Source: Sipunculus nudus
Taxonomy: Eukaryota; Annelida; Sipuncula; Golfingiida; Sipunculidae
NCBI GenBank assembly: GCA_026874595.1
Contig: CM049316.1
Coordinates: forward strand, 68,534,676 to 68,598,675
DNA: 64,000 nucleotides
Reading direction: 5' to 3'
Shown here: piece after piece, positions 1,688-63,494 of the stretch
How the letters are laid out: each line of letters opens with the position of its first letter
Numbering within the stretch: the stretch's first letter is position 1
Translations under genes and position numbers: made by a program
Notes under the pieces: generated by a model
What the model saw: the letters and a program-made list of their open reading frames with translations, nothing else
Told to the model about the DNA's origin: nothing
Database searches by the model: none

Positions 1688-3635
1688 GTATCGCCAGACA
1701 TAGTCTGGAGATACTATGGTTTTGGCACGGTCGCGCCGCCGCGGCCGCCGAGATTTCTTTTGGACACAATAACTCAAAAAATATTTCACGGATCTTTACC
1801 AAACTTGGTATATGTATAGATATGGGTGAGAGGACGATGCCTATTTAAAATGAGGTCATGACCTCAACTAGGAGAGTGACCTTGACATTGAATATGTTCA
1901 ATTTTGGGGAAAATCACACAAATTCTTTAATATCTCAAGAAATCTTGCATGGATTTATCCCAAAATCAACTTGATGGAAGATCATGGATAGGGTTGTCAT
2001 GTTCCAGAAACTGGTGGCGCCACCTATTATTCTTTACTTGTTTTCATGCCGTTTAATATCCCCAAAATAGCTACTTGACAGTACTGTGAGCATTATAAGT
2101 CAAAAACTAATGGGCAGATTTCTTTCATATTATGCAAATACATAGATATGGGTTATGGGATGATGTTTATTTAAATTGGGGTCATGACCTTTCCTATGAG
2201 AGTGGCCTTGACCTTGAATATTGCCATATATGGTGAAAATCACACAAAATCATTAATTTCTCAATAAGGGATGCATGCATTGGTCCAAAAATCAACTTGA
2301 CCGAAGATCTTGGATAGTAATGTCATGTACCGGAAACAGGTGGCGCCACCTTTATTCTTTTACTTGTTTTCTTGCCGTTTAATACCCAATCATTGCCACT
2401 TAACAGTACATTTATAACCTGTGAGCATTATAAGTCAAAAACTAATGGACAGATTTCTTTCATATTATGCATATACATAGACATGGGTTATGGGATGATG
2501 TATATATAAATTGGGGTCATGACCTTTCCTATTAGAGTGGCCTTGACCTTGAATATTGCCATATATGGTGAAAATTACACAAAATCATTAATATCTCAAT
2601 AAGGGATGCATGCATTGGTCCAAAAATCAACATGTTTGAAGATCTTGGAAAGTTTTGTCATGTACCGGAAACAGGTGGCGCCACCTGTTATTCTTTTACT
2701 TGTTTTGTGCCGTTTAATACCCCATCATAGCCATTTATCAGTACTGTGAGCATTATAAGTCAAAAACTAATTTACAAATTTCTTTCATATTATGCATATA
2801 CATAGATATGGGTTATAGGATAATGTTTATTTGAATAGGGGTCATGACCTTTCCAATGAGTGGTCTTGACCTTGAATATTGCCATATATGGTGAAAATCA
2901 CACAAAATCATTAATTTCTCAATAAGGGATGCATTGATTGGTCCAAAAATCAACTTGACTGAAGATCTTGGATAGTAATGTCATGTACCGGAAACAGGTG
3001 GCGCCACCTGTTATTCTTTTACTTGTTTTCGTGCCGTTTAATACCCCATCATTGCCACTTAACAGTACATTTATAACCTGTTAGCATTATAAGTCAAAAA
3101 CTAATGGACAGATTTCTTTCATATTATGCATATACATAGACATGGGTTATGGGATGATGCATATATAAATAGGGGTCATGACCTTTCCAATGAGTGGCCT
3201 TGACCTTGAATATTGCCATATATGGTGAAAATCACACAAAATCATTAATTTCTCAATAAGGGATGCATTGATTGGTCCAAAAATCAACTTGAACGAAGAT
3301 CTTGGATAGTGTTGTCATGAACGGGAAACAGGTGGTGCCACCTGTTATTCATTTACTTGTTTTCGTGCCGTTTAATACCCCATCATTGCCACTAAACAGT
3401 ATTGTGAGCATTATAAGTCAAAAACTAATGGACAGATTTCTTGCATATACATGGACATAGGTTAGGGGATGATGTATATTGAAATTTGGATCATGACCTT
3501 TTCTATGAGAATGACCTTTTTTATGAGTGTGGTCTGATATTAATTGTTGCTGAAGATGGGGGGCCTATTCTTAAAGGGGGGGGGGATTAATTGTCTGGCG
3601 ATACTATGGCACCTGCGGTGCCAAGAAATATCTAG
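1688..3635 (+). mobile_element. Complete Helentron-like element, family D, nested in A1
   Basis: The left end GTATCGCCAGAC (1688-1699) folds with the following GTCTGGAGATAC into a hairpin. The exact inverse GTCTGGCGATAC recurs at 3593-3604. It is followed by a perfect 3' hairpin GGCACC-TGC-GGTGCC and terminal CTAG (3632-3635) before T. A hairpin about ten bases before CTAG|T is the classic Helitron 3' end. A CpG-rich GCC tract lies at about 1729-1750. The empty site (ATTAATTCCAG) is preserved in the two other A copies near 29312 and 54475, so the boundaries are well supported. Confidence 0.88.
1750..3500 (+). repeat. Tandem array of about 330-base units inside element D
   Basis: Five units are marked by the palindrome GGTGGCGCCACC at 2013, 2339, 2674, 2997 and (with one change) 3331, at spacings of about 323-335. 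Each unit also has a GGTCATGACCTTTCC-type segment, a CCTTGACCTTGAATATTG segment and the sentence-like block CATTATAAGTCAAAAACTAA. Units are highly similar, so array growth is recent or homogenised. Confidence 0.85.
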
Positions 3636-5025
3636 TTCCAGTAATAAATTAAAACTGGGATAGTAATTAGCACAATGATATTGTTTGTCCCTCATTCAAC
3701 CAACAGTGTGTATACTTTATTTGAAAAGATGTTTTATTTTATCAAATTTACTGAATCTTTTATTTTATTTTGGTGAATAAAATTAAGCATGTACTGAAAA
3801 CTTCTATGTGCAAAACTTTTTAATAGTGATTCAAGGAATAATCTTGTAGATGCCATGTTGTGGCATTATATTCTTTTAAATTCAGTTTAAACATTTGTGA
3901 TTTAAAAATAAAAAAAATATATGTGTATGCATAATATGACCCAATATGAGCTACACTCTGGATATATAATGATTGCAACTTTTGCAACAATTCTAATATA
4001 GTAACTTATAGTTTCAGTTTTTTTATTAAAAATATATAAAACTTGTAAATAAAAAAAAAATGATTCAGATAAAAACTTCTAAATGAAAAAATGTATATAT
4101 GCTAAAAAAATAGGATTATATATAAAAACTTAAATGCATTATTTATTTGAAAGTGAAATAAAGGTATTAGTCCATTCTGTCCACTTGCCTGTCCATCTGT
4201 AAATTTTCATATGCATCACAGTATCTAAAAACTTTTACTGTTTTTCTTCATGACAGTCTTGTCAGAGTATTAGTTTGCAATCATATATTTAGAACTTTAC
4301 TATAACCAAGTAGGAGGGCCCCTTTCCTCTTAGCTTTTCATATTCTTATAATAAATGAAAAACATTACAATAGAATATTTCGACATCCACCTTCATGCTG
4401 CCCTCACTTTTCCCTTCTCATAACCCCATCCCAGAGTCAGCCTCAGTAAGCAAGAACAAGATGAATCAGATATATTCATACTTAAATATTTTGTTTAACT
4501 ATTTGTCTATAGGTACCTATGTACATACCAGAAATTATGTCAATATTGTGTAATATGTAGACATAGTGGGCATCACAATAATGTACCTTGTCAAGACTAA
4601 AGAGATATTGTGTCATACAGCACAAATTCATAAATCACTTCATCAGCATAGTTAATCATAACATCATATCTGTCAAATTGAAAGCTTGCAGACTACCATA
4701 CACTTTAGATCCTTCAACAAATAGCCTTATCATCATTCTACTACTGCTCATTACTGCCGTCATTGCATTCATATTTGCTCAAATATATCACAATTTTCAA
4801 CCCCTCCTAAATAAATGAAAAATAAACTACTATATTTTACTCTATTAATCCATCAGTCGGGTAATTTCATTTATCATTTACTCACATATTACATTACATT
4901 CCTTTATAATAGCCCAACATGTCCATGATATTCATAATCTTTATCAACTCGATATAGTATCACAGTGGAGTAACATTTATAGTCCAATCACAATCAGCTG
5001 AGCGCCATGACCCATGGGTCCCTTG

Positions 5026-5660
5026 TCTTTAAAAAGTAATTAAGAGAGCTTAATGCCATACCGGTTTGGCATCCCCATCCGCTTCTGCACTTTTAAAAGG
5101 CTTATATCACCTACATGCTGGCATCTATCAATATTATATCATAATTCTGTATTATTATTGCAAAAAATGTTCCTGGTGTTTTGATCTTGACTTATGCTCT
5201 CAAGGTCAAGTCACAGTAGATTCTGGGCATTGCTTGTTCATTAGCACAATAACAACAAGGGTTTTGATTTGATTTTGTTCTAATTTAGTGGAAGGCATCT
5301 ATTAATGCCACTATCGAAATGATTAACTTTTGGTTGACCTTGACCCATATTTGCGCAATTTTTTAGCACTTTGGCATTATCACCAATGACTGAATATCAT
5401 CAAAAAATGGTTTTCAGTGCTTCCTAGGCATACTGTCAAATATTCTTGTATATCAGTATTGCCCCATACTAATTCCAAATAGTTTTTTTTTTTTAATTTG
5501 GTCACTGATATAATTTAGCACAGTGACCAAATACTGTCAAAAAATGGTTTTAGGCGCAGCTAAGGCATATTATTAAATATTCTTATGTTTCAGTATTGTT
5601 ACATTCTGATTTCACAGTTTTCTGAAATTAGGTCATTCTGACCTGATTTAGCCTTAAAAC
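5026..5660. other. Non-genic stretch with a degenerate tandem pair
   Basis: No gene is seen. Two diverged units of about 130-150 bases share CAAAAAATGGTTTT and CAAATATTCTT/TAAATATTCTTAT phrases (about 5400-5600). A short inverted repeat GCCATACC/GGTTTGGC lies near 5054-5070. Confidence 0.5.
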
Positions 5661-6243
5661 TTTGTTTATATTAAAAACTAGGTCAGTATTGCGTCTTGTT
5701 CTGAAGTTATGGGCCCAAACATAATGCACTTTTTAAAAAATTAGGAAATATATTTACTCACTTAACAAGAGAATTGCTAAAGCTTGGGAATTTTTTTCAG
5801 GAATATAACTTTATTTAATCAAGATTCAGTTGTCTACCCAAAATCAGATCTGAATTTAATTTTTTTAAGTTATAAGTATAAATAAAAAATCAATACCTTA
5901 AATTTTGTCCAATTTTGGCAATGGCCCATTTTTTCCTGTAAGCACTGTTGATTTAATTTTCACAGCATATATACATAAGGATACATAATACTTCAAAATC
6001 TGAAACTTCAAAGGAATTGATTGAAAAGAGTAGCTTTTATTCAAGTTTTCATACATCATGTCAAGTGTTGTTCACATCAAGCCCACCTAGTAGTACAGCC
6101 TTCACTTATGTCATGTAACCCACTCCAGGCAGCTTGCCTTGGCTCAGCTTGGCCACTAATAGCAGGCTACCCCTCTGCCCTGCACTCCCCCCCCCTTCCC
6201 CCCCCCCCCCCCCCCCCGATCCATAAACTAGATGAATGTTATT
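5661..6243 (+). mobile_element. Family A fragment
   Basis: It matches the second half of A1 (about 926-1480), including the ACTAGATGAATGTTATT phrase and a long poly-C tract (about 6187-6217). It is broken at its right side by element C1, whose left end directly follows GTTATT. Confidence 0.7.
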
Positions 6244-8377
6244 GTATCCGCCAAAACAGAGTTTTGCGGATACTATGTTTTCAGCTGCACGCCGCCGCTG
6301 CTGCCGCCGTAGGTGTCCGGAGAACTCATCCGTAACCGCTGGGCAGAATTTTACGAAACCCAGGATTATGTTCGGGTCACATGTGAACTGCTGCGCCCCG
6401 ATTTTGTTTTGACCTCTGACCTTTCCTCTGCACTCTGAGTCCGTTTGTGCGTCTGTTTCCACACATAAATCCACATATCTCCGATACCGTTTGACGGATC
6501 AGGAAATTTTTTTGCACAAATGTAGCCCTTGGAGAGCTTTATAACATACACAAAAAATGGTGGCGCCACCTGCAACCATGTTTGCACAGTGTCCATCTGT
6601 TCGTCTGCCTTGGGTTAAAATCACTCATATCTCTGCAGTGATTTGACTAATTCACCTGAAATTTGGCATGCGTATACATCCTGGATAGCTTTTTTGATTT
6701 TATGACAGGTGGCGCCACCTACATTCACGTTTATGCTGCAGACATCCAAGCTCATATCTCGGGAACCGTTTAACCGATCAGGAAAATTTTTTTTGCACAA
6801 ATGTAGCCCTTGGAGAGCTTTATAACATACACAAAAAATGGTGGCGCCACCTGCAACAATGTTTGCACAGTGTCCATCTGTTCATCTGCCTTGAGTTAAA
6901 ATCACTCATATATCTGCAGTGACTTGACTAATTCACCTGAAATTCGGCATGCGTATACATCCTGGATTGCTTTTCTAATTTTATGATAGGTGGCGCCACC
7001 TACATTCACATTTACGCTGCAGACATCCAAGCTCATATCTCGGGAACCGTTTGACCGATCAGGAAAATTTTTTTGCACAAATGTAGCCCTTGGAGAGCTT
7101 TATAACATACACAAAAAATGGTGGCGCCACCTGCAACCATGTTTGCACAGTGTCCATCTGTTCGTCTGCCTTGGGTTAAAATCACTCATATCTCTGCAGT
7201 GATTTGACTAATTCACCTGAAATTTGGCATGCCTATACATCCTGGATAGCTTTTCTGATTTTATGACAGGTGGCGCCACCTACATTCACGTTTACGCTGC
7301 AGACATCCAAGCTCATATCTCGGGAACCGTTTAACCGATCAGGAAAATTTTTTTGCACAAATGTAGCCCTTGGAGAGCTTTATAACATACACAAAAAATG
7401 GTGGCGCCACCTGCAACAATGTTTGCACAGTGTCCATCTGTTCATCTGCCTTGGGTTAAAATCACTCATATCTCTGCAGTGACTTGACTAATTCACCTGA
7501 AATTCGGCATGCGTATACATCCTGGATTGCTTTTCTAATTTTATGACAGGTGGCGCCACCTACATTCACGTTTATGCTGCAGACATCCAAGCTCATATCT
7601 CGGGAACCGTTTGACCGATCAGGAAAATTTTTATGCACTAATGTAGCCCTTGGAGAGCTTTATAACATACACAAATTATGGTGGCGCAACCTGCAACCAT
7701 GTTTGCACAGTGTCCATCTGTTCGTCTGCCTTGGGTTAAAATCACTCATATCTCTGCAGTGATTTGACTAATTCACCTGAAATTTTTGGCATGCGTATAC
7801 ATCCTGGATAGCTTTTCTGATTTTATGACAGGTGGCGCCACCTACATTCACGTTTACGCTGCAGACATCCAAGCTCATATCTCGGGAACCGTTTAACCGA
7901 TCAGGAAAATTTTTTTGCACAAATGTAGCCCTTGGAGAGCTTTATAACATACACAAAATATGGTGGCGCCACCTGCAACCATGTTTGCACAGTGTCCATC
8001 TGTTCATCTGCCTTGGGTTAAAATCACTCCTATCTCTGCAGTGATTTGACTAATTCACCTGAAATTCGGCATGCGTATACATCCTGGATAGCTTTTCTGA
8101 TTTTATGACAGGTGGCGCCACCTACATTCACGTTTACATTGCAGACATCCAAGCTCATATCTCGGGAACCGTTTGACCGATTGGGCCAAAATTTTGCATG
8201 TGTATAGATCTCACATAGCTCTTTATCATACGCAAAACTGGTGGCACTACCTGCAGCCATTTTTGCACAGCTCCTGTCTGTTTGTCTGCCATTGGATAAA
8301 ATCACTCATATATCGGCAGTGGTTTGACATATCTGCCTGAAATTTTGCAGGTTTGGGCCAAAGTTTTGCATGTGTAT
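6244..8377 (+). mobile_element. Helentron-like element, family C (copy C1, 3' end missing)
   Basis: The left end GTATCCGCC pairs with the nearby GTTTTGCGGATAC to form a terminal hairpin. A GCC/GCTG-rich tract follows (about 6287-6312). The body is a 280-base tandem array. The sequence stops mid-unit at GCATGTGTAT, where the LTR of the retrotransposon begins. The expected C right end (GCGGATAC, hairpin, CTAG) is not found beyond the retrotransposon, so this copy was truncated or rearranged. Confidence 0.78.
6480..8377 (+). repeat. 280-base tandem array (dimeric unit) in C1
   Basis: Palindrome GGTGGCGCCACC recurs at 6559, 6708, 6840 and onward with alternating spacing of about 149 and 132 bases, so the 280-base unit is an old dimer of about 140-base monomers. 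Both halves keep CTCATATCTC and a GAACCGTTTGACC-like core. Near-identical 70-codon frames inside the units are only a product of the repetition. Confidence 0.9.
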
Positions 8378-9510
8378 TGTCACCAGAAATCGGTGACAAT
8401 ATGTACGGTGTTTTGTATCATAGTTTAACGAAGTCTGTTCTCTATTGATATTGACGTGAAACGTCATCCTAAAGCGTTGACAGGTCTTGATTGTATATAT
8501 ATATATATATTGTGTATTCTTGTATGGAATCCCATCGGCTATCAGCTGATTTATCCGTGTCACGCATCGTGTGTAATTATTTCTGGTATGTGGGTCGCCA
8601 AGGTGACGCTAACAGTCAAACTAGGTCACATATATCCTTATATGGGACACTTGAGAAATGAGCCAATCAGAGAACCGGATCGCCGTATTGTGACGACGAT
8701 TGTGACGTCAGAGTTCAGGGAGAGACGCTGGAAGCTGCCTTCAGTTGGGTCTTGAAGCTTGAGGTGGCAGCACGCACGCACGGGAGTAGGAACATTGAAA
8801 CGCCAGGAACGACATAGAAGCAAGCTTCTACAAGGACCCAGCTCATGAGAACTCAGCCGTGCTGCAGAAAGAGCTTCGTATTGGCGATATAGAGAGAGCA
8901 CGCTCGTCACCTGCCGGCCTAGTTCAGCTTGACCTAGATACATAACCGCCGTAAGCCGTGAAACCGTTGCTACACGAGCAAGGTCAAGGACTCTAAGCTC
9001 TACATAAACAAAGGGCGCTATTGCATGCATGTGAATGTAAACCTACCCGGGTCGCTGACAAGCAAGATCAGTTGAAGATCGCTAAACTCAGAAAGACTAT
9101 ATGCTGCTAACCATACGCTAGATTCTACACAAAACAGTAACCAGAGATCTCTGAAGGAACTGGACTTTATTGGTTTTTATACAAACCACGGACTCAGTAA
9201 ATATCCTGTATTTTTAATGTGAAGAACTGTCGTATTGACACATCAACGCACACACTCACACTTGTGTCTCTGTAAGTATTGTCTTGAATATATTTGTGAA
9301 TTTAACCTCATGTCTCATAGTTTCTATTGATCTGGGTGTATGATTGTCTGGTATTTTTTATACACGTCCTTAAAAGAACCTGGAAATGTCACCTGTAATG
9401 ACCGGGATCTAATTTCTTGATTAATGAAATCAAGTGGCGAGCGTTAACCCATCCTATTGTTTTATAGGATATATCCGTTGTAAAGTTTTCATGTTAAGTT
9501 AGGGGTGACA
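8378..9510 (+). repeat. Candidate 5' LTR
   Basis: It begins TGTCACC and ends GGTGACA, a 7-base inverted terminal repeat in the TG...CA form, giving about 1133 bases. It abuts repeat sequence on its left and a primer-site-like sequence six bases from its right end. The 3' LTR is missing, so its limits cannot be checked by comparing two LTRs. Confidence 0.5.
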
Positions 9511-9515
9511 TTGTA

Positions 9516-9533
9516 TGGCGAGCGTGCCAGGAT
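9516..9533 (+). other. Candidate tRNA primer binding site
   Basis: TGGCGAGCGTGCCAGGAT starts with TGG, the complement of a tRNA 3' CCA, just after the candidate LTR. A similar TGGCGAGCG occurs at about 9434, inside the LTR. The tRNA was not identified. Confidence 0.4.
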
Positions 9534-10231
9534 ATAATTAGCCTTAAAAAAAACTGGCTAATTACAGTGAGTTTCAGAAGTTTTGAACTGAGAAAACAGT
9601 ACTGAAACCAGACATTCATATACTCAAACCAGAGTTGATCTGAATTAATAATTGGAAATGACACCAAACTGATGTTATAGTGTATACTTGCTCAATGAAA
9701 TTACCCCACTATTAGGAGTTAATATTTATTCTGTGAGAATATTACCTGAAGCATAACATTGTTTCAGGATTAGCATATACCTTGAAGATTTGGCTAGAAC
9801 ACATGCATGTTTTGTGAGTAATGCTAGTTCAGTGATACCTGAACATCATTACTGATTTGATATAAACCCAGATTAGAGTGAACATTTTTGATGTTGTTAG
9901 ATACGCCCTGGTATAATTTTTCCTACACTGGTTTGTGATTGGTCACGTGGTAGGGTCTCTTTACAGGTAAGTTTACCCCTCCCGATTGGCATGGTAATCA
10001 TAGGTGCATGGTGTTTATTGATATCTTGATATCCATCCGTCCATCCGTCTGACCCTTCGTCCGACCTTCCGTCCGTCCGTCCGTATAAGTAGATTTTGAT
10101 GCGTAGAGCTACCGTAGTGTTATTGTACGGATACCGCCGGTTCGTTAGGTTGGCTTTGACAGTACGTATTTACGGATTTTTAAGAGCCGATATTACTAGA
10201 TACTGGAATCTTACTAGGTTAGAGCGTTACC
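9534..10231 (+). other. Retrotransposon leader
   Basis: Untranslated region between primer site and gag. It has no long frame. At 10028-10085 it carries imperfect CCGT/CCGTCCGT repeats, unexpectedly like the simple repeats just inside the left ends of the family A and B elements. Confidence 0.45.
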
Positions 10232-10597
10232 ATGGAAACGTTAGAGTCACTTGTTAGATGCGGGCAGGCCTTGGGGCTTAAGGACCAGGCTTTACAAGAT
10301 TATGTTGAGGCTAGACGGCGTGCGGATGAAGAACGTGAGGAAAGAGCTAGGCAACGTGAAATAGAGCGTGAGCAGCGGGAAATAGAGCGCGAGCGAGAGG
10401 CTAGAGCCCACGAATTAGAGGTTCTAAGGTTAAAGTCTGACTCTGGGGTTAAAGAAGAGAGAAGTAGGGATGTATTCCCGAAAATCCAGCTTCCACCTTT
10501 TGATGAGGCTCACGATCAGCTAGATGCGTTTCTTGAGCGATTTGAACGATTAGCTGTATGTCAAGGCTATGATAGGGAGAATTGGGGCTTCACCTGA
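10232..10597 (+). pseudogene. gag N-terminal part (frameshifted from the rest)
   Basis: ATG in a good context (ACC before ATG) opens a 121-codon frame. Residues about 28-75 are a highly charged, Glu/Arg-rich heptad-like region (REIEREQREIERERE), probably a coiled coil. Residues about 85-118 (IQLPPFDEAHDQLDAFLERF) are the usual start of a Gypsy-type capsid domain. The frame then runs into a stop at 10595-10597, while the capsid continues without a gap in the +2 frame from 10582. A one-base loss in or near the GGGG run at 10584-10587 explains this. It is a decay mutation or sequencing error, since a shift in mid-capsid is not a known programmed site. Gag proteins form the retrotransposon particle and bind its RNA. 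Confidence 0.75.
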
Positions 10598-12222
10598 GTC
10601 CGTTACTGCGGGGTAAGGCGCTAGGGACTTACACACACTTATCGGTTAGTGAGGCCATGGATTATGATAAGTTAAAGATAGCCTTGTTAAAGCGATACCA
10701 AACGACCGAAGAGGGTTATCGACACAAGTTTCGGACTTGTAGGCCTGAGCGAGGCGAAACGCCGAGTCAGTTTGCGGTGAGACTGAGTGGATACCTAGAC
10801 CATTGGATAGGGATGGCAGGGGTCGGAGGTGACTACGACGGGGTAGTTAACCTGTTGATGTGTGAGCAGTTCGTAAACTGCTGTAGTAGGGATCTCTCTA
10901 TGTTTTTGAAAGAGAGACGGTGTCGTGACTTTGATAGTATGGTAGACTTAGCCGAGAGATATACGGAGGCTCATGGTGTACACAGCCTTACAGCAGGTCC
11001 TCGTTATGGCAATAATGTGCCGCGTCCAGCGCAACCGGTATCTCAGCCTAGAGAGAAGCGAGAGGTTGAGCGCAGTTGGGACGGTCAGACATTTAAGCCA
11101 TCAGGAGGCATCAGATGTTATTTATGTAATGAACTGGGACATAAGGCGCGGGAATGTAAGACTAGTGCCCGGTCGAGGCCTAGGTCTTCCCCTCAAGTAG
11201 GGCGTGCTGCTGGCGATCAGCAGAGGTATAGGACTAATTTTAGCCCCCCGTATAACCCAAAACAGAAACCGGAGACTATGTCAATGGCAGTAGTCGAGGC
11301 GGAAACGGAGACAGTCGGTGCGGTGAAACCGGAAGTAGAGAGTCGTAGTCAGTCGTTAGGATTTGCTGCCCAGACAGAAGGCGGAATCTCGTTACCTGTG
11401 TGTGAAGGGCTGGTGAATGGTAAGTCAGCGAGGGTGCTGCGGGATTCGGGATGTTCCTCGGCAGGAATACGTGAGTCGTACGTGGAGCCGAATCAGTTCA
11501 CCGGACACCAGGTCGAGTGTAGGTTGTTCGACGGGTCTGTAAGACAATTTCCTACGGCTAGGATTAATGTGGACTGTGCGTACTTTGTCGGTACTATCGA
11601 GGCAATGGTGGTCGAGGATGCTGTATGTGATTTAGCGCTAGGTAACGTAGCAGGAGCGCGTGGTCCGTATGATCCGGACCCGACGTGGAAGTCTGAGCGG
11701 TCCTCAGGCATAGTGTGTGACGGTGTAGAGTCACAAAAGGAGGTGTCGTCCGTGGTGGAGACACGGAGCGCTGCACGAGAGAAACAGATACCGACGCGTA
11801 GCTTGAATGTTGCAAGCCCAGTTGCCGATGTGAGTCCGGCCGAATTTTTGAAGGCGCAGGAGGAGGATGGGTCTTTAGCGCCGTATTGGAGGCTAGCTAG
11901 AGAGGCTAGAAATGATAGTCCATTTAGAATTGAGGACGGATATTTAGTTCGGGTTGTGAGTGATAAACGGGGAGATCAAGATGGATCTCGAGTGGTGGTA
12001 CCTCAGACGTTACGGTACGACGTAATGAGGATGGGCCACGAAGCGGTTATGGCGGGCCATCAGGGCATAGACAAAACGCACGACCGCGTGAGAACTCAGT
12101 TTTTCTGGAAAGGGATGTATAATGACATTGCTGAGTTTTGCAAGTCCTGTCCCATTTGCCAGAAAACCATACCTAAAAGGCAAGGTGCCTGGAGCTACGT
12201 TAGGCCAGATGCCATTAATTGA
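10582..12222 (+). pseudogene. gag (SCAN-like capsid, CCHC knuckle)-protease-integrase N-terminus
   Basis: A 546-codon frame that continues the gag above. Residues 3-131 are a capsid with the pattern of the SCAN domain: LSPLLRGKAL, then ALLKRYQTTEEGYRHKFR, EQFV, LAERYTEAHG. The SCAN family is known to descend from Gmr1-like gag. A zinc knuckle follows, C179-x2-C182-x4-H187-x4-C192. The aspartic protease has D288-S-G and a later LALGNVAGA segment. The integrase HHCC zinc finger is H486, H493, C523, C526 with WKGMYNDI between. No reverse transcriptase lies between protease and integrase: the Gmr1 order. It breaks after residue about 534. Integrase-like sequence goes on in another frame to about 12261 and then stops, so the D,D,E catalytic site is lost. 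The element cannot encode a full pol. Confidence 0.82.
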
Positions 12223-12261
12223 TGAGCCCTGGCGTAGAATTTCGATGGATCTGGTTGGACC

Positions 12262-12807
12262 TGTATTTTTTTCAATTTTTTAGGCATTTTTTCTCTATTT
12301 ATGAGACCTTCCAATGAAGTGGTCATCTGTTTACATGCCACAAACTGTAACTGCTGTACCTAGAATCTTCTTACTTAACATCCAGGGAGACTAATGAAAA
12401 ATCTCCTTGGAAACCTGAAATTAGGTTTCTGTAACCCATATTCTCTGAGCTATAGGGCTCATAAATACCCCCAAGAATAATTAAAAATTTGATACAAACA
12501 AAAGCTCCAGTATCTGAATAACTAATGCCTTGATAGCCATGATTCTTTGGATATAAATTGATCATGGAGTGTTTCATCAGTTCTTGCAGACTAGTGGCAC
12601 TCCATGTATTTTTTTCAAATTTTTACGCATTTTTTTTTCTATTTATGAGACCTTCAAATGAAGTTGTCATCTGTCCAAAAGCCCACTGAAACCCATTTCT
12701 AAGGACTTTTCACAAAATTCATGATTTGTTTGCACTCTGGCAGTCATTTTTTTCATTGTTCAACATTCCTTGAATTCAGCTGAGCGTTATGGCCCATGGG
12801 CCACTTG
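12262..12807 (+). mobile_element. Family A' right part
   Basis: The body phrases AGAATCTTCTTACTT, CCTGAAATTAGGTTTCTGT and a T-run after ACTGTGCCAC-like sequence identify sub-type A'. The right end is CAGCTGAG, hairpin GGCCCATGGGCC (12791-12802) and ACTTG. The hairpin differs from the family norm GACCCATGGGTC by a paired A-to-G and T-to-C change, which keeps the stem. The left end is missing at the retrotransposon junction. Confidence 0.75.
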
Positions 12808-13971
12808 TTTCAGGAATATAAGATCATTTAATCAAGATTCAATTGTATACCGAAAATTAGATCTGAAATTTGCAATTTTTTTAAGTTATTAGCATAAATA
12901 TAAAATCAGTACCTTAAATTTTGCCCAACTTTGGCCACGGCACATTTTTTTCCTGTAAGTATTGTCGATCCTATTTTCACAGCATGTACACATAACGATT
13001 TAATCTGTTAAAATCTGAAATTTGAAAAATAAAAGCTGCAAAATTAGGCTAGTTATTGAATTTGTTTGGAGGCTCTTGTTGTATTCCCTGACATTGTCCA
13101 GCTGTCCACTGAGGTCACTGTAGGTTAATCAGTGCAACTCTCTATGCTCCCCAGACTGTTATGTAATCCCATCACTGGGGGCAAGCCCTCTCTCTTGTTG
13201 AGCTTGACCAGCTGCAGGCTGCCAGCATAAATACCACAGGGAGCCTTTCTCTCTCTCTTCCCCCCCTCCCCCCCCCACCCCATTCTGTTGATAGACCTAT
13301 ACTATGAACTAGATGAATCTTAAAGTTAACATTTTTACAGTTACAAAGGAGACCCCTCCTCCACCCACCCCTTCAATACACAGGACTAATAAACAAGATA
13401 TAATTTTAATGTTAAATAAATTCTTTTTAATGGGACTTGGACAATTTTGATTTTTTTAAAGAAAAAAATGTTCAGGAATTTAATCCTAATATTCAAATGT
13501 GATAAAATATTAGGATCTAATGTAAGTGCTAACTGACAAGATTTAAGAATATATTAATACTTTGTAGCATTTCATTCATATCTCTTAAAGTTGGCGGGGC
13601 CTAGGCGTGAATAACACTGTTAACTTAGTATTAAAAATAGGAATATTGGTCAAACTTTATGGGATTAATTTTTAACTCTTATGGCCATATATTTAACTTT
13701 TGAAAACTTAATTACCTTCACACATTATTTGTTTATGAAATGTTACTTTTATATAACACTTACTTTAGGCCTATTTGTTCCCTTGGTGCATCACTAAATG
13801 GTTTGCTCATGTCCATTATTCTATGATTTACAGAGTTTCATTTTAGCAGGGCCATTTTCTTATAGCTTTTCTAATGATAATATACATGAAAAACCAAAAG
13901 AAATAAAAATATTTTGCAGTTACTAATATTTTCCAAAATTCAGCTGAGTGATGTGACCCATGGGTCCCTTG
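12808..13971 (+). mobile_element. Family A right part
   Basis: Resumes A-type body (CAGGAATATAAGATCATTTAATCAAG) directly after the A' end, so the A' copy was inserted in its T-run. It ends with CAGCTGAG (13941-13948), hairpin GACCCATGGGTC (13955-13966) and CCTTG. A C-rich tract lies near 13259-13280. The stretch 13330-13900 is AT-rich without genes. Confidence 0.7.
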
Positions 13972-16490: not shown

Positions 16491-16492
16491 GT

Positions 16493-36906: not shown

Positions 36907-36911
36907 TTTTT

Positions 36912-46626: not shown

Positions 46627-46639
46627 TTTATCTTTTAAG

Positions 46640-54000: not shown

Positions 54001-55931
54001 TAATGTTCACAGCATATATACATAAGGATTTAATCTTTTAAAATCTGAAATTTCAAAGAAATTGATTGGAAAGAATAGCTTTTATTCATGTTTTCATACA
54101 CCATGTCAAGTGTTGTTTACATCTGGCCCACCTAGTAGTACAGCCTTCACTTGCATTATGTAACCAACCCCAGGCAGCTTGCCTTGGGTCAGCTTGGCCA
54201 CTACCAGCAGGCTTCCCCTCTGCCCTGCACCCCCCCCCCCCCCCGATGGTGCATAAACTAGATGAATGTTATTATATTTTTCTGTATTTTATTCATTCTT
54301 ATTCTAGGCTATGCTACATTTTAGATTTTGTATTGTACCACCAGGGTTACAGTGATTAAAGTGTACATTTAATTGTGTCCACAAAGTGGTGTATTGCTAT
54401 GATAGTGTGGGTGTTCATGAGATAAGTAATTCCTTACTTCAGAAGAGTAAAAACTTCACCAGGCGTGAAATTGACTATTAATTCCAGTAATTAATTAAAA
54501 CTTGGATAGTAATTAGCACAATGATATTGTTTGTTTCTCATTCAACCAACAGTGTGTATACTTTATTTGAAAAGATGTTTTATTTTATCAAATTTACTGA
54601 ATCTTTTATTTTATTTTGGTGAATAAAATTAAGCAGGTACTGAAAACTCCAATGTGCAAAACTTTTTAATAGTGATTCAAGGAATAATCTTGTAGATGCT
54701 ATGTTATGGCATTATTTTCTTTTAAATTCAGTTTCAACATTTATGATTTAAAAATAATAAAATATATGCTAATATGACCCAATATGAGCCACACTCTGGA
54801 TATATGATGATTGCAACTTTTGCAACAATTCTAATATTTTAACTTGTAGTTTCAGTTTTTTTTACTCTGTCTATATAATGATTGCAACTTTTGCAACAAT
54901 TCTATATTTTAACTTATATTTTCAGGTTTTTTTATTAAAAATTTGTAAAACCAGTAAATAAAAAAATGATTCAGATAAAAACTTCTTAATGAAAAAAGTG
55001 GATATGCTTAAAAAAAATAGGATAATATATAAACTTAAATGCATTATTCCCTTGAAAGTGAAATAAAGGTATTAGTCCATTCTGTCCACTTGCCTGTCCA
55101 TCTGTAAATTTTCATATGCATCACAGTATCTAAAAACTTTTACTGTTTTTCCTTCATGACAGTCTTGTCAGAGTATTAGTTTGCAATCATATATTTAGAA
55201 CTTTACTATAACCTAGTAGGAGGGCCCCTTTCCTCTTAGCTTTTCATATTCTTATATAAATGGAAAACATTACAATAGAATATTTCTACATCCACCTTCG
55301 TGCTGCCCTCACTTTTCCCTTCTCCGAACCCCATCCCAAAGTCAGCCTCAGTAAGCAAGAACAAGATGAATCAGATATATTCATACTTTAATATTTTGTA
55401 TAACTATTCATCCATAGGTACCTATGTACATGCCAGAAATTATGTCAATATTGTGTAATATGTAGACATAGTGGGCATCACAATAATGTACCTTGTCAAG
55501 ACTAAAGAGATATTGTGTCATACAGTCACAAATTCATAAATCACTTCATCAGCATAGTTAATTATAACATCATATCTGTCAAATTGAAAGCTTGCAGACT
55601 ACCATACACTTTAGATCCTTCAACAAATAGCCTTATCATCATTCTACTACTGCTTATTACTGCTGTCATTGCGATCATATTTGCTCAAATATATCACAAT
55701 TTTCAACCCCTCCTAAATAAATAAAAAATAAACCACTATATTTGACTCTATTAATCCATCAGTCAGGTTATTTCATTTGTCATTTACTCACATATTACAT
55801 TACATTCCTTTATAATAGCCCAACATGTCCATGATATTCAAAAGCTTTATCAACTCGATATAGTATCACAGTGGAGAAACATTTATAGTCCAATCACGAT
55901 CAGCTGAGCGCCAAGACCCATGGGTCCCTTG
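51068..55931 (+). mobile_element. Family A element (A3) interrupted by a B fragment
   Basis: The left end AGCTCAGCTGACTATAAGTC and GTCCGTC repeats run to CTCCTACCA at about 51226. B sequence occupies the body to 53076. The A body resumes at ATTTAAAAAAGTTATGGGCC, with about 190 bases of A missing at the join. The right end is CAGCTGAG, hairpin GACCCATGGGTC (55915-55926) and CCTTG. Confidence 0.75.
51227..53076 (+). mobile_element. 5'-truncated family B insert in A3
   Basis: It starts mid-body (CACACATAAATTATCCTTAG) and ends properly with CACAGGTTCGC, hairpin AGGCCTGTAGGCCT (53061-53074) and TG. Blocks such as AGTTCACTCAGTGCAGTAG match other B copies. Loss of its left end together with 190 bases of A suggests a deletion or template switch at the left junction. 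Confidence 0.68.
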
Positions 55932-56130
55932 TTAAGTTTAAGACTGCAAGATAAAAGGTCAAGGTCACACAACCCCACTTTTTGAAAAAAACATGTGCCT
56001 ATGTTTTAAGCAAAGTTTGCATCCAAAACCATTCTTCTTTTACTTATAGATCACCTGACAATAGAAGCAGAACCATCTATATATCAACATCACAAGATCA
56101 AATGTCAAGGTCAGAGGACCATCCTACTAA
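55932..56130 (+). repeat. Fragment of A''-type AGGTCA-rich unit
   Basis: AAAAGGTCAAGGTCACACAACC, TCTTTTACTTATAGATCACC and CACAAGATCAAATGTCAAGGTCA correspond to one and a half A'' tandem units. Confidence 0.6.
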
Positions 56131-57097
56131 TTCTTATGCTGACCAGGCTTACAGTTTAATAATCAGATAATTCCTCTGTTGTCTGGGATACTCTACTCCA
56201 ATATCTTTATACACAACTATCACTGATTCCAACCTCAACATCTTTATTAATTTGTTTAAATACTGTTTTGAGTCAGTGCCCTCTGTCTCTGCATGTAATC
56301 AGGTCTATTAAGTATTATTATATTTTTTCCAGCATCTCTCACCTCATACAAGAAGTCTATAGTCCTTTTGTTGGGCCCTTTTTGACCTGTCTGTGTTCTA
56401 GTCTGTCTTGAGAATCTTAAAAAAGTGGTTGAGTTGAATGCCAAATGGACCTCTTGTCTGATTCTAGGGATCCGGGCCTGTTCAAAGGCGTTAGATAAAC
56501 TTACAAGTCTCTTGGTTGCAGTATAAAAACTTATTATAACTACAGCAAATGAGCGGCCAAGCCCCATACTCAGGACTGGACCCCCAGTTTCTGTTTCTCA
56601 ATACATCGCATGTCTCCCAGCAAGACTTCTACATAATGATTAAACCAATCAGAAATTTACTTGAAGTGTCACAAAAGCTACAATAAAAAGATGGTGTACA
56701 TGGGAGGTGAATGAAAGTGCAATTAGGGTCTTTATCCATTAGAATCTAAGTAAATAATTCTGCATATCTTCCTTACATTTTATCAGTATATTTAAAAATA
56801 ATGCAGCATTGGAAGACAATCTTCTTAAAAAAACAGCTTGATAGTTTATCATGTCCTGTATAAGAAACTGGTTGCCAAATAAACTTGACTGATAGTGTAA
56901 ATTTGAAGTTTGTATCATGGTCAGTGTAAATACAAAGCTTATGACAAATAATTTCAGACTATTTTGAATTTTTGTCACAGAGGATCAGCAGTGGGTGATT
57001 TTCTTTTGTTATGTAATTCATAATGTAGTTATATCTATCGCATTTGGTCAATTAACTTTAAAAAAATCAATTTTGATGATTTTTATGACTTTGTACA

Positions 57098-57150
57098 GTG
57101 ATTTAAATCATGATTTAAATCACAATTTAAATCAAGTGATTTAAATCATA
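57098..57150. repeat. GATTTAAATC palindrome cluster
   Basis: Four overlapping TGATTTAAATCA-like units able to form a cruciform. Origin unknown. Confidence 0.7.
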
Positions 57151-57587
57151 CCAGGCCTGTTTGCTCATACCAGGAATTCAGTTACCCCACAATATACATT
57201 TTGAATAAAGACCACACAATTTAAGTCCAAAATAATATGTCAATATTATCTGAAGCTTAGGTATATGTGATCTTCTCTAAAAATAGATATGCACAGATGG
57301 ATGCCATGCACAAAATATTAAAACTGGTAGATGCACTACCAGTATTTTGTATGAGGGAAAAACTGTTGTAAGATTGTAGGTAGAATAGTGTATATGGTAA
57401 AATTATTCAGATCTATAACATGCTGCCATATGCTTTTTAATTCTGGTGGGATAATTTGGACTACACAGTATCTAGTTACATAATCTTAAAAAAAATAATA
57501 TGTTCAGCAATATTTAATTGAATGGTAATTAAACTCTAAAAGCTCAATTAATTAAACTGCATTATTTTCTCCTGCTTCCGCGGAACG

Positions 57588-57668
57588 GGGGACATTGATT
57601 TGGGTTTGTCTGTCTGACATTGCTGTCTGTCTAGCTGTCTGTGTATCCCTCTGTCTGTCTGTCTGTCA
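57588..57668 (+). repeat. TCTG/GTCTG simple repeat after CCGCGGAACGG motif
   Basis: An imperfect TGTC/TCTG tract follows TTCCGCGGAACGGGGG, itself an inverted repeat (TTCCGCGGAA). The hairpin-plus-simple-repeat layout recalls the left ends of the Helentron-like families, but no right end was found. Confidence 0.5.
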
Positions 57669-58349
57669 GGTTTCATTTCCATGTGATAACTAAATATTAT
57701 CCGATTTCATTCAAATTGGGTCTGTGATTGCTCTCATGCATACCTTGGTTAGGATTGGTTTTGGAGTGTCTCTCTGAAAAATTATTATCACCAGCTCCAG
57801 AAAAAAAATTCCCTTTGTTTCCAGTTCACAACCAATATTATGACATGTGGAGACATCTTCAGGGGACAATGAAAACTAAAACACAGGCACGATGCCATGT
57901 GGAAACATCTTCAGGGGATAATAAAAACTAAAACATATTAAGTAGGACATCAATTCAACAAATTTACTTGTTTTGAGTAAGTTAATCTATAATTAAGTTA
58001 AAATGGAAATACCTAGGTAAGTACCATAACTGCTGATAAAAAGTAGGTTTATAGAAGTTTATTCAACTCAGAAGGACCCCTTTCGGGGTATACAGAGTCA
58101 TGCAATACATTATAAAGAAATTCTTACATGGCAAGATCACATGTGATATAAAACAAATTTTACATAGTCATTGAATGACCAATAACAATCAATATACGAC
58201 AAAGGCACATATTTCTAACCTAAGTATAAAAAGAAGATAATATGCAACATACCAATATACTAATATTTGCATAAAGATAGGAACACCTATCTGAAAATAA
58301 TACTGACACTAAGATGGTAAAATAATTATTTGTAATGTCTCTCTATAAA

Positions 58350-59048
58350 TAATTTTGGCACAGTGCCAGGATTGGAAGAAGTGCAGCCAGGTATAGGTCA
58401 AGTGGTCATTCAGTGCAGTAGCTGCATTCTATTTATAGCTTTAGCAGACTGCTCACTGCATCAGATTTGGCACCAAAGTTCAGCCTGGATCTATTTATAG
58501 CTTTGGCAGACTGCCAACTGTGTCAGATTATGCAACAGGTCAAGAGTTCACTCAGTGCAGCCAGGTACAGGTCAGAAGTTCATTAGTCTAGCGAGGTGCA
58601 GGTCAAGAGTTCACTCAGTGCAGTAGCTTGAGGCAGCAATTTGTCACAGTTCACTCTGGGGCAACTGCCTTACTCACTTTAGCCTGGTCAGACCCATGCA
58701 TCAGACTCAAGGTAAGTTTGATGTATTGGCCTGATATTTTGACCTGTCCATGTGTCCTTGATGGTATTCTCATTTATAAGACAGGAGGTGCCACCTACAT
58801 TGACTTTTGCAGTGTATGCGCCTTCTTATTTCTACAGAGGAATTTGATACATCAGCCCAAAATTGGGCTATTTATACATATCGGGTAGCTTTATAGTGTA
58901 CAAGACTGGTGGTGCCTCCTACAATCATTTTTGCGCAGTGTATGTCCCTGCTTATTTCACAGGAGGGGTTTGACATATCAGTCTGACATTGGGCATATGT
59001 AATATCTCTTGGTTGAATACAAGACTGGTGGTGCCAGCTACATTTATT
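58350..59048 (+). mobile_element. Family B fragment
   Basis: B right-half blocks (GCAGCCAGGTA, AGTTCACTCAGTGCAG, TCAGCCCAAAATTGGG) run up to ACTGGTGGTGCCAGCTACATTTATT, where a C left end is inserted. The B right end is missing. Confidence 0.65.
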
Positions 59049-59150
59049 GTATCTGCCAATACAGAGTTTTGCAGATGCTATGTTTTCAGTTGGACAAGTG
59101 GACATGCATTGACTGGTGACAGAAGAAAGAGGGAAGTTGCGTTGCTAAAT
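59049..59150 (+). mobile_element. Family C left end (C4)
   Basis: GTATCTGCC pairs with GTTTTGCAGATGC to form the C-type left hairpin. The following sequence does not match the C body, so its right limit is unknown. Confidence 0.5.
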
Positions 59151-60028
59151 TTCTAGCTGATAAGTCAAACCATGCACTCCTAAGGTGTGTGATATTTTCA
59201 CCCAAAATAGGCTTGCAAATGGACACCACACAAACACTGTGGAGGTGGTGCCATCAGTTTTGTTTGTTTGAGATATTTTATTGTCAATGAATATGAACAT
59301 ATATATCACATAATACAAGTATCAATTGGATTGAGTGCAAGCTACTCAAAGCTTACCTTGACTCTCTCCCAAATGTTTCAGAGGTGACTAAAAATTTGTG
59401 ATGGCAGTATTCAGGGTGTTTGGGTGTGATTGAGTTTAAGTGAAATAGGGTGGTATTGATGTTGGGTAAGCGAGGGTAAGTTGTATATTTTCTCAGTATT
59501 AATGGTAGCAATTATTTATTGATTTATTAAGGCCCCACTTGAAAAGCAGTACCCTATAATGATCACCATGTCAGTCCATCCTACCCTACTTCCGTCAGTT
59601 ATACTTTCTTTCGCACGCAAAATCTCAACAAGAACAAGCTTGATCTTTTTCAAATTCACAGGTATGATTGATACCTACGAGGGTTCCAGACCTTTTGAAT
59701 TACAGAATTGCAATATGGCTGCCACGTACAGCAAAAGCGGTGAATTAAAAGCGGTTGAATATTGTGTCTAGACGTATGTTTTCTTGGTCAAAGATCCCAA
59801 TTAAGCCATAATAGCAAAGGTTAAGTTGGTATTTTGAATTTTAATATGCAAATTAGGGCAGCCTGTTGATGAAAAGTCGCGGAATTCGGTTAATTCTCCT
59901 GTTAGCAGAACCAGACCTGGCGAACCTTGAAGCATGACATTTGGCAGGAACACAGGAAATCTTATTTGGGGATGGGGGTAGGGTGGGGATGTCTTTAGAT
60001 AGTCCTACAATGTTACACACATTTAGTT
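59151..60028. other. Stretch without recognised gene
   Basis: A 70-codon frame at 59559-59771 has no recognisable domain. No family A-E sequence is seen until the A' left end at 60029. Confidence 0.45.
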
Positions 60029-61081
60029 AGCTCAACTGACTGAAAGACATCTGAGCTATATCAATCACTCTTTGTCAGTCGGCCGTCCAGCCGTCCGTCT
60101 GGCCGTCCGTTAACAGGGCACAAATCGTAACCACTGTACCTGGAATCTTGTAACTTGACATCCTGGGAGGTCCACAAGAAATCTGCTTGGACACATGAAA
60201 TTGAGTCTCTGTTACCCATATTCTTTGAGCTTTAGGTCTCCTGAGTACACCCCAGAATAATAAAAAATTTGATACAAAAGCTCAAGTATCTGAATAATAA
60301 CTACTGCATTGATCATCATCATTCTTTGCATGAATATTGATCATGGAGTGTTCCATCAGTTCCTGCAAACTGGTGGTGCCACCTGTATTTTTTTCTAATT
60401 TTTACTCACCTTTTTTTCTCTTTTTTTTGATACCTTCAAAGAAGCTGTCATCTGTTAAAAGGGCACAAATCGTAACCCCTGGACCTTGAATCTTCTAACT
60501 TTGAATTTAAAGAAGTCCATGAAAAGTCTTCATGTAGACCTGAATTTAGGTCTCTGTTACCCATATCTTCTGAGCAATGGGGCTCGTAAGTACCTCCAGA
60601 ATAATTAAAAATGTGATACAAAAGCTCCAGTGTCTGATCAACTAATACATTGATCACCACAATTCTTAGCATGCCTATTGATCATGGAGTGTTTCAGCAG
60701 TTCCTGCAGACTGGTGGTGCCACCAGTATTTCTTCTAAATTTTACCCATTTTTTTTCTCTGTTTGAGACCTTCAAATGAAATGGACTTCCATTAAAAAGC
60801 CACAAATTGTAACCGTTGCACCTGGAATTTACTTACTTCACATCCTGGAGGGGTCTATGAAAAAACTCCTATGAAACATGAAATTAGGTCTCTGTTACCC
60901 ATATCCTCCAAGCTTTGGGGCTTGCAAGTACCCCCCCCCCCCCCAGAATAATGAAAAGTTTGATACAAAAGCTCCAGTATCTGAATAACTAATGCATCGA
61001 ATGCCATGATTTTTTGCATGCATATTCATCAATTGGGGATTCATTAGTTCTTGCAAACTGGTGATGTCACCTGTTTTTTTT
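60029..61081 (+). mobile_element. Sub-type A' left part
   Basis: The left end AGCTCAACTGACTGAAAGAC is followed by CCGTCC-type repeats. There are three A' units with ACCTGGAATCTTGTAAC and TTCCTGCAAACTGGTGGTGCC. The copy stops at the T-run after GATGTCACCTG, where A'' is inserted. The right part is not found after A''. Confidence 0.7.
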
Positions 61082-63494
61082 AGCTCAGCTGACTTTCAGT
61101 CATGCTGGGCTATAGCAATGGGTCTTTGTCCGGCGTCCTTCCGTCTGTCCGTCCGGCTGTCCGTCCGTTAGCAGGGCACAAATCGTAACTGTAGGGGCTA
61201 GGGCCATGAACCCTATGCAGTCTTAGAGGTTATAAAAAGATCTCCTTGCAAACCTGAAATTAGGTCACTGTGACCTATATTCTCGAAGTTCTGGGGTGTG
61301 TTTGCACCCCACTGAAATAACTCTTTGAGACAAAATTTTCATCCCAAACCTTCCATCTTTCACATACAGCTCACCTACCAACAGGGGAAGAACCATAATT
61401 TTTTTCAGGTCAAAAGGTCAAAGGTCAAGGTCACAGGAGCCTCTTCTTTGAAAAGCCTGTGGATGCATTTTAAGCCAACCCTTTCATCCCAATTCTTTGA
61501 TATTTCTCATATAGCTCACCTACTAAGAGAAGAATCCTATAGATTTTGAGGTCAAAGGTCAGGGTCACAGGATCCACTTCTTTGAAAAGGTAGTGGACAC
61601 ATTTCAAGCTAGACTTTTCATTCCAAACCTTCCAGCACTGATATCGCTTCTCTGCCAACAGGGGAAAAGACCTGTTGATTTTGAGGTCAAAGGTCAAGTT
61701 CACAGCACTCACTTCTAGCGTGGAGTCATTTTCAGGCAAATTTTTCAATCTGTACCTTCCATCTGTCATATATGGCTTACCTAACAATACGGGAAGAAGC
61801 CTATTGATGTTTAGGTCAAAAAGTCAAAGGTCAAGGTCACAATATTTAATTGTTCTAAATGCTTGTGAGCATATTTCAAGTGTAACTGTTCAACCCAGAC
61901 CTTCAGTCTTTCACATATGCCACATCTATGCATCACTCAGTTTGACTCAAACTTCATATTTATGGGTCTTTTTGCTTGAATAAATAACTTATTGATTTTG
62001 GGGTCAGCTGGTCAGCAGGTTAAAGGTTGCAGGTCAAAGTTATTCACCCATTGGTTGCCAAGTAATTACACCAGATTTAAATGGTCAGTAGTTACCCATC
62101 ATTTAGAAAGAATCCAGTTGATATATGGGCAAAAGGCCAAGGTCATAGGTCAGGGATGTTCACAATTACTTATTTTATAGACCATCTTTATTTTTCTTGT
62201 ATATATAACCATCCAACTCCAGCTGGTACATCTCCCTGTGTGGCTGTAATTGTGAGTGACACTGGTGGCATATGACTCCCTTTTGTATCAGCCTATTAAG
62301 TGATAAGGCTCAGTGATAAGTACCTTGTTACTTCATAACAAAAACACTTGTCAGAATGCTTCAGCCAGGCATTAAGACTATGAGAGTATAGTATTAAGGT
62401 TTAGCTACTGATTTATAAGATGATGGGAACATTTTGCAGTTTATTTTATGGAATCCCAGCAATAAACTTAGTTTCCTAGATATCTGAATATTTTAATATA
62501 TATCACCACATATAAAAGCAAGTGTTTGTTCTCATAATATGTGGATGTGTACCTTGATTTAGGATGGCTTTTTGTTTTATTTCAAGACTCTTAGTCATGC
62601 TTTCTGCATTTCTTTTCTTTCAGGTTTGGCAGTTTACCTACCCTGCTGACCCCGTTGAAAAGCAGAGTGATAATAAAAAAATATTGGACTTACACTTTTT
62701 ACAATTGCATATCTATAAATCTGATATGAGGGCCTGGACATGCCTTTTGAATTATTTTGGGCATTTATTACTGGATAATTTGCCCCAAGTTTGGTCTCTT
62801 ATTGGAGAATGTGGGATATCAAATGTCATACTTGTCAGAAATCCATTATGTCTGCCAGTTGGCCACCTTAGAAATTCTTTCTTCAGGGCAGTTTCAGTAA
62901 TTTTTCTTTAATGTTTGGTCCGATTTAGAGAATGTTTGTTATCTGATTTCAGACTTGTCAGAAGTCCAATATGGCCACCAGGCAACCATCTTTTAATTCC
63001 TTTTGATCTTATTATCTCAAGAACAGTTAAAGTGAATGCAGTTGGATGTATATTTATGTAATCTTGTAAAGGATTGGGTCAAATATTTCTGAATAAATAT
63101 TACCATCATTTATAAAAGTGCAGTACAGTTGGCTTGTATTGAATAAAAATTCATACAGAAGCACCTGTTTCTCAATAATTCTTGCATGTATTTCCTTGAT
63201 TTTTGCTATATATTTTGATCTTATATTTGCCCTTTGTGGTGTTCCTTTTGAGACTGACAGGTTTCAAGCAAGCTGTTGGAATAGTTCCTGATATCTTAAC
63301 AATCATGCATTTTCCTCAGACCATCAATTCACTGTGTTTTAACCAGACATAGGTGATATATATTTCTGTTGTCATAGAAAATTTTCAACAAATTGGCAAA
63401 TTGGTTCTTCAAAATTTGACTGGAAGTTGTGAATCTGTCCATGATGTCACAGGTCATGCTTGGCAGCTGTGCGTCATGACCCATGGGTCACTTG
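61082..63494 (+). mobile_element. Complete Helentron-like element, sub-type A''
   Basis: The left hairpin AGCTCAG..CTGGGCT has one changed pair, followed by CCGTCTGTCCGTCCGG repeats. Tandem AGGTCA-rich units run 61321-62170. A second-half segment (62290-63470) is shared only with the copy at 38201-40369. The right end is CAGCTGTG, hairpin GACCCATGGGTC (63478-63489) and ACTTG. Length 2413 bases. Confidence 0.82.

Follow-up and report, generated by a model that had tools for sequence, protein, structure and literature searches.

Throughout, the window denotes the whole stretch of Sipunculus nudus DNA that was analysed, 64,000 nucleotides at C11:68,534,676-68,598,675 of a 1.43 Gb assembly, and positions within it are counted from its first letter. 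Contigs are written as C with a number and element families as a letter alone. The window carries repeats of five families, A to E, which are HINEs, non-autonomous derivatives of rolling-circle Helentrons, and which all point the same way. The elements and the sites associated with them are listed below; A-family copy 1 was delimited by self-alignment, end scan and flank comparison.

1..5028, + strand: A-family copy 1, left end beyond the window, family D element inserted at 1686-3636, right end at 4995-5028
1685..63497, + strand: Helentron-type end matches, 35 in number
1686..3636, + strand: complete HINE of family D, left hairpin 1694-1708, tandem body 1816-3518, right hairpin 3607-3623, end CTAG, with an empty site at 29306
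2011..61073, no strand assigned: 64 sites of the palindrome CAGGTGGCGCCACCTG, with at most 4 mismatches
6241..8354, + strand: C-family element, 280-bp tandem array at 6474-8328 with two palindrome-like sites per unit
14327..15060, + strand: A-type left end with TGTCCGTC microsatellite and 338-bp tandem units bearing CTGGTGGCGCCACCTG-like sites
20097..21260, + strand: 339-bp tandem array of the type found at 14410
21256..22868, + strand: HINE of family C, left hairpin 21269-21283, tandem array 21436-22765, end CTAG
25668..31932, + strand: HINE of family B, the outer element, interrupted by A, end CTTG
27531..30561, + strand: HINE of family A (copy 2), nested in B, GTCC microsatellite 27580-27636, end CTTG
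36908..37936, + strand: HINE of family E, tandem array 36983-37768, degenerate end
48139..49472, + strand: C-family element with a 278-bp array
51069..55934, + strand: A-family copy 3, split by a B-type element whose end lies near 53078

A first-pass annotation had proposed that the five families share one terminal plan, and this plan is present in their subterminal inverted repeats (subTIRs), hairpins and ends. Comparison of the first 45 with the last 75 bases of each element, with 300 shuffles each, revealed perfect subTIRs in D (13 bp, 1688-1700 / 3592-3604), B (11 bp, 25675-25685 / 31901-31911), E (11 bp, 36912-36922 / 37903-37913) and A (10 bp, 27536-27545 / 30527-30536), with 0/300 shuffles as high in every case. 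Those of D, B and E fall within the 11-15 bp by which Helentrons and HINEs are recognised, and that of A is just short. The right-hand copy lies 21-38 bases upstream of the element end, in keeping with the 15-40 bases annotated. The window copy of C has only 7 perfect bp, reached in 27/300 shuffles and thus at chance level. Left hairpins are present in A, C, D and E, as annotated, and none was found in B by a finder requiring a loop of at least 3. Owing to this loop requirement the right hairpins of A (GACCCATGGGTC), B (AGGCCTGTAGGCCT) and C (GTAG...CTAC) were identified by eye, whilst the finder returned a 7-bp stem in D and a weak 5-bp stem in E; a 3' palindrome or stem-loop near the right end, as expected of Helentrons and HINEs, is therefore found, weakly in E.

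The annotated CTTG/CTAG-like end holds for A and B (CTTG) and for C and D (CTAG), but not for the E copy, which terminates in a degenerate ...GAGGCAA. Canonical Helitrons have 5' TC and 3' CTRR ends and an AT target. Those ends are not found here, as A and B end in CTTG and the left ends begin with T runs, although the CTAG of C and D is compatible with CTRR. A CpG-rich repeat followed by a tandem body, annotated throughout, likewise stands only in part: A and E have a clear GTCC/GTCY-like repeat and B a degenerate one, with a GCC run in D and a weak CCG-rich stretch in C in its place, and tandem arrays were recorded for B, C, D and E. The A copy at 27.5-30.6 kb has the microsatellite only, the 338-bp array lying in another element with an A-type left end (14327). 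The boundaries of D were traced in copies: its left end starts at the identical base after unrelated flanks in 7/7 copies, and its right end was seen in 4/7, within the DNA stretch compared. A D empty site is preserved inside the window at 29306, and empty and filled sites fit a TT target, with Ts at both borders leaving the cut position ambiguous. It is the subTIRs, the D left end in all seven copies and the D empty site that identify A to E as HINEs.

This plan is already in print (here and below, statements on cited papers refer to the parts of each that were available). Eleven HINEs have been described in the genome of the Pacific oyster, with a 5' subTIR, inverted repeat, GTCY/GTCC microsatellite, tandem repeats, a 3' subTIR with palindrome, and TT targets, several unrelated families sharing one genome (PMC7492417). 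These Cg_HINE elements resemble ours also in a satellite-like array held in fixed orientation to its flanks and in T-rich targets (PMC7492417). DINE-1/HINE elements of Drosophila and a mite share the order of hairpin, microsatellite, array and subTIR (PMC4067079), with 12-15 bp subTIRs, a 3' palindrome, central repeats, a TT or T-rich preference and Rep-helicase-endonuclease partners; their sequences differ from those found here, and strand domains go unmentioned in the available text (PMC4067079). The CpG module of A and E is the HINE GTCY/GTCC microsatellite. The first-pass annotation had suggested that the five might be undescribed transposon families with a new CpG-module plan, and their exact sequences were indeed assigned to no named family here, Repbase not being among the sources covered; yet the plan, microsatellite included, is published for HINEs of oyster and fly, and ends of the A type are those of Helentrons with Rep and helicase, which refutes the idea for A and leaves it highly improbable overall. 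An undescribed superfamily was rejected on the same grounds, namely a plan already published and Rep-helicase partners for A.

These partners were sought among genomic Rep genes, as the annotation had proposed. The Rep family PF14214 gave 143 matches among 150 scored candidates, and 17 Rep loci were examined, six with long flanks and eleven as tails. The A right end was matched by blast in 7/17, and an eighth locus (L023) has a motif variant. Since A-type ends are common in the window, this count was not relied on, and independent copies were compared instead. Blast matches between A and its partners are confined to the last 35-36 bp, at 88-100%, and the right end of A copy 2 is identical to that of a Helentron on C7 over 36 bp. 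Three copies, on C17, C5 and C10, show 98.2% and 98.6% identity across the terminal ~2.18 kb, and their match ceases at one shared base of the A-type right end, after which the bases differ. Further upstream identity is about 92-98% in the main blocks, and the left start is shared at TTTTTAGCTCAGCTGAC, preceded by unrelated flanks; the element measures 14.9 kb in the C17 copy. A second left-end sequence was observed ~0.7-1.1 kb inside the first.

The C17 copy has an open frame of 2342 codons with Helitron_like_N (E 1.2e-27) and PIF1 (E 4.2e-23) matches, an Exo_endo_phos match under the Pfam cut-off (E 2.7e-4; 21.2 of 24.5 bits), a herpes-tegument-like domain (Herpes_teg_N, N-terminal part) and DUF6570. 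Helentrons with tegument-like or OTU deubiquitinase domains share the Herpes_teg_N match in the Rep-helicase frame; the HINE-type arrays upstream of the frame here are undiscussed in the available text of that work (PMC9741609). In the C17 copy 6.8 kb precede the frame, holding the GTCC microsatellite and tandem units with CTGGTGGCGCCACCTG-like sites, which therefore belong to the autonomous Helentron. Each of the three copies also has the two left ends and a C-type element ahead of its Rep frame. As the autonomous family carries the 5' hairpin, the CpG microsatellite and the palindrome-bearing array, the HINE plan is a remnant of its 5' region joined to its 3' end. A second Rep family (copies on C7 and C3) is 68% identical to the first, and its copies match each other at 96.7% up to the A-type right end, the left end not being reached. 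The Rep frame of locus H4 is 93% identical over most of its length to that of an A partner (H3), with the match stopping just past the frame, so that H4 may possibly be a case of a similar protein with different ends. A second Rep group comprises loci H1, H2 and H6, for which no ends could be defined.

A-type ends are thus served by autonomous Rep-PIF1(-endonuclease) Helentrons, on the evidence of three independent copies, which bears out the annotated Helentron-like assignment. None of the 17 Rep loci examined proved to be a partner of B, C, D or E, the C ends being encountered there only as the inserted C-type element. Oyster HINEs, in contrast, could not be linked to an autonomous element (PMC7492417); for one family, the partners of A answer the question that this raised, in that the microsatellite and satellite-like array are part of an autonomous Helentron.

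The families had been called unrelated, which is true of their ends but not of their tandem bodies. Against the 64 palindrome sites of the window, 200 half-shuffled palindromes averaged 0.87 and at most reached 15; none of the 64 matches better in reverse, the profile having been derived from those very sites. Genome-wide, the 16-mer CAGGTGGCGCCACCTG occurs exactly 4,777 times (reversed control 0) and the 12-mer GGTGGCGCCACC at 111,757 places (reversed control 14, an imperfect control as it holds an extra CpG); the 12-bp palindrome lay inside Helentron-family sequence at 20 sampled loci. When flanks of 84 sites from the window and these 20 loci were anchored on the palindrome in seven clusters, the in-register score was 88, against a mean of -155 (standard deviation (s.d.) 28, max -69) in 500 slid controls. 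Two one-site clusters resemble members of other clusters shifted via small indels; with these dropped, the five remaining clusters scored 44 against -117 (s.d. 29, max 1; 0/2000), with a mean flank identity of 36% against 28.5% in controls. Judged by sequence comparison, the flank likeness is weak but palindrome-locked, and the tandem bodies of differently ended families share a register-locked module ending in GGTGGCGCCACC; unrelated tandem bodies were rejected through this register test. The available text on Cg_HINE does not include such a module, and a figure there boxes two shared monomer segments (PMC7492417).

The half-site YAGGTGGCGC may recall the CTCF core, which is a lead only.

The uniform direction of the elements is a point absent from the first-pass annotation. 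Alongside the 35 end matches on the + strand, the end scan gave one hit on the - strand, which is the D left hairpin matching itself, and no genuine - end; ten shuffled windows gave 6 hits altogether. Self-alignments of at least 250 bp number 210, every one of them direct, and many join units within a single array. Direct duplication of blocks already containing elements would produce such a pattern, and some paired blocks of the window do repeat across 1-2 kb; however, the 17 right ends of A and B have similar downstream sequence in two pairs only, so about 15 insertions look independent. Self-seeding, in which older elements receive new ones always on one strand because the target T runs lie on one element strand, would fit the common nesting (A in B, D in A, B in A), but the 273 T5 runs and 255 A5 runs of the window (TT/AA 5424 / 4500) are too even to yield 35 to 0. 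T-run targeting as the sole cause of co-orientation was ruled out by these near-equal T5 and A5 counts.

Across the genome both strands are used about equally (A 1440/1352; B 2281/2234; D 297/297; E 671/690). Orientation was compared among the Helentron families A, B, D and E by exact-match patterns, with the first 100 places per pattern listed; the dense comparison therefore falls on C1, and the counts that follow are among the matches listed. The 38 sites of the C pattern were too few for an analysis of C1 and entered only the comparison of other contigs, for which a 35-site list also served, as it did for one chromosome end. At C1:119-829 kb, 20/20 sampled loci (23 sites) lie on the - strand. 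Pooled over A, D and E, the families agreed in strand in 59/78 cases within 100 kb (label rotation 0/5000) and in 160/238 within 300 kb (p 0.0006), the A-E pair being significant by itself. B was added afterwards as a new family, and its strand was compared with that of the nearest A, D or E site in C1:0-15.6 Mb: the two were the same in 36/38 cases within 25 kb, 52/57 within 50 kb, 70/77 within 100 kb and 80/90 within 200 kb, where the best of 99 label rotations reached 30, 43 and 57 at the first three distances. Without the first 3.3 Mb of C1 the figures were 24/25, 34/38, 47/52 and 53/61.

Over all six family pairs, agreement decays with distance: 26/28 below 10 kb, 39/46 at 10-25 kb, 52/61 at 25-50 kb, 76/100 at 50-100 kb, 147/205 at 100-200 kb, 259/405 at 200-400 kb, 463/787 at 400-800 kb, 708/1385 at 0.8-1.6 Mb and 1558/2751 at 1.6-3.2 Mb. 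Taken by region, cross-family agreement below 50 kb, at 50-100 kb and at 100-200 kb was 33/37, 21/29 and 60/72 in C1:0-3.3 Mb, and 62/72, 45/50 and 62/79 in C1:3.3-15.6 Mb. The 199 listed sites of C1:0-15.6 Mb fall into 38 runs, where 2000 shuffles averaged 90 and never fell below 66, and two runs of a single orientation, with 30 and 26 sites, extend over 992 and 1205 kb. Families with unrelated ends thus co-orient regionally, across tens to hundreds of kb. Strong domains were demonstrated for the first 15.6 Mb of C1 and for the window, with short-range agreement reaching 28 Mb and nothing shown further.

These data bear on both explanations raised for the window. The agreement at 100-200 kb in C1:0-15.6 Mb lies past the nest size seen, and self-seeding is improbable as the cause. 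Label rotation leaves block duplication in place, and four B right ends at C5:22.956-22.981 Mb, spaced ~8.5 kb apart, suggest tandem block duplication there; against this, the spacings on C1 are irregular and the agreement extends to families with unrelated ends, so that duplication too has little probability as the general cause.

Orientation was also examined at chromosome ends. Among 23 pieces sampled 200 kb in from these ends, one being all N, five held elements: C3 and C13 right on the + strand, and C3, C7 and C10 left on the - strand. When each end was called by its nearest site within ~1.1 Mb, a cut-off set post hoc, from sampled and listed sites together, the left ends of C3, C7, C10, C11 and C14 were -, that of C4 was +, and the right ends of C1, C3, C7, C8 and C13 were all +. 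Elements therefore point outward at 10/11 chromosome ends in this post hoc count, from which the C1 left end, as the source of the idea, was left out. Satellite arrays at C7 and C9 right mirror those at C8 and C17 left, and these contig ends accordingly look like true subtelomeres. The satellite unit is roughly 375 bp, from shifts between matches. In an all-against-all comparison of the fetched DNA (one listing comprising the 60 longest matches), every repeat that could be assigned belonged to a Helentron family, a Rep element or a subtelomeric satellite.

Element identity, the partners of A and the regional co-orientation with its decay are direct observations. We posit that a Rep protein would paste the top strand of the element into single-stranded DNA of the lagging-strand template at a moving replication fork, in which case an element pointing along fork movement would have its top strand on that template, and its orientation would record the prevailing fork direction in the germline. 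In this account the lagging-strand step, the causal role of fork direction and the germline timing are inferred. Domains would stand out in regions replicated mainly in one direction and would fade where origins are numerous or have shifted, and elements near telomeres would point outward. IS200/IS605 elements insert at the lagging-strand template and so mirror replication direction (PMC5371812), and for the eukaryotic Helitron Helraiser single-strand nicking and circle formation are supported, integration being less settled (PMC5876387); it is this precedent and these data that favour insertion into the lagging-strand template. The likeness to IS200/IS605 lies in single-strand insertion and orientation, with a link to replication that is described for bacteria (PMC5371812) and is proposed here; the difference is that those elements are bacterial and that IS608 has no helicase (PMC5876387). 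We give replication-directed insertion a probability of roughly one half.

The main rival is transcription, which could set orientation through entry into the displaced strand of transcription bubbles or R-loops, or through selection against one intronic orientation. Agreement peaks within ~50 kb, a gene scale and the sole scale seen at C1:15.6-28.3 Mb, and both CARD-like open frames of the window (see below) share the + strand with the elements. On the other hand, the C1 runs of 992 and 1205 kb extend beyond the usual reach of a gene, and outward pointing at chromosome ends, albeit counted post hoc, is not predicted by gene direction; we consider transcription an unlikely cause, though one to be taken seriously.

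Several results weigh against replication-directed insertion. On C1, the A-D and D-E pairs alone reached no significance (p about 0.07-0.22), pooled A, D and E agreement fell to 0.43 at 0.6-1.2 Mb, and the longest run, of 30 sites, was equalled among the 2000 shuffles, minus sites being in excess. In C1:15.6-28.3 Mb, where no B is listed, agreement was 21/23 below 50 kb, 10/17 at 50-100 kb and 21/43 at 100-200 kb, and in C1:28.3-71 Mb, with D and E only, it was 1/3, 0/4 and 4/11, or 5/18 within 200 kb. The 304 sites listed on other contigs, with window pairs excluded, include no cross-family pair below 50 kb and showed no significant agreement (3/7 at 50-100 kb, 5/6 at 100-200 kb, 8/16 at 200-400 kb; 8/13 within 200 kb). 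At C3:43.8-55.2 Mb seven consecutive listed B sites are all + over ~11 Mb, whereas the A sites there are -, - and + and the E site is -. The test of outward pointing that was fixed beforehand (within 3 Mb) gave 3/5, with a list ending at C11, and the C4 left end runs in the wrong direction with four sites. Opposing sites occur 0.15 Mb from the right end of C1 (-), 1.12 Mb from the left end of C3 (+) and 1.39 Mb from the left end of C11 (+), and Rep matches near ends, which were kept out of the count, point both ways (+ at C8 right and C10 left; at C17 right -, followed by + inward).

Further open frames lie between the elements. A 546-amino-acid frame at 10582-12222 (+) matches Integrase_H2C2, a zinc knuckle and SCAN, and is probably part of a gene like those of long terminal repeat retrotransposons. 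Two CARD-like frames lie at 31995-32447 and 46693-47055, both on the + strand as the elements are, the first below the Pfam cut-off. An Rfam search of the window at gathering thresholds gave no match.

The repeats themselves are rolling-circle elements of a known type, and the surprise is that different families point the same way. We found neither Helitrons nor Helentrons reported as oriented by replication or in domains, though the literature covered was limited and seen in part, which makes this weak evidence of novelty; for Cg_HINE, integration in both orientations is reported, and no test of local co-orientation was met in the text available (PMC7492417). The matter bears on how eukaryotic rolling-circle transposons choose their targets. 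Were orientation set by transcription, this too would be a strand-specific targeting rule, one unseen in the available parts of the papers cited. Were it set by the fork, Helentrons would use the single-stranded DNA of replication as their bacterial HUH relatives do, and would be the first eukaryotic rolling-circle transposons known for replication-directed, strand-specific insertion. Tentatively, Helentron orientation might then, where one fork direction prevails, preserve the direction of germline replication as a fossil map resolved to 0.1-1 Mb. As each family comprises hundreds to thousands of copies, fork direction would be traceable through time, and the copies would form a layered record of replication direction in a species without replication data.

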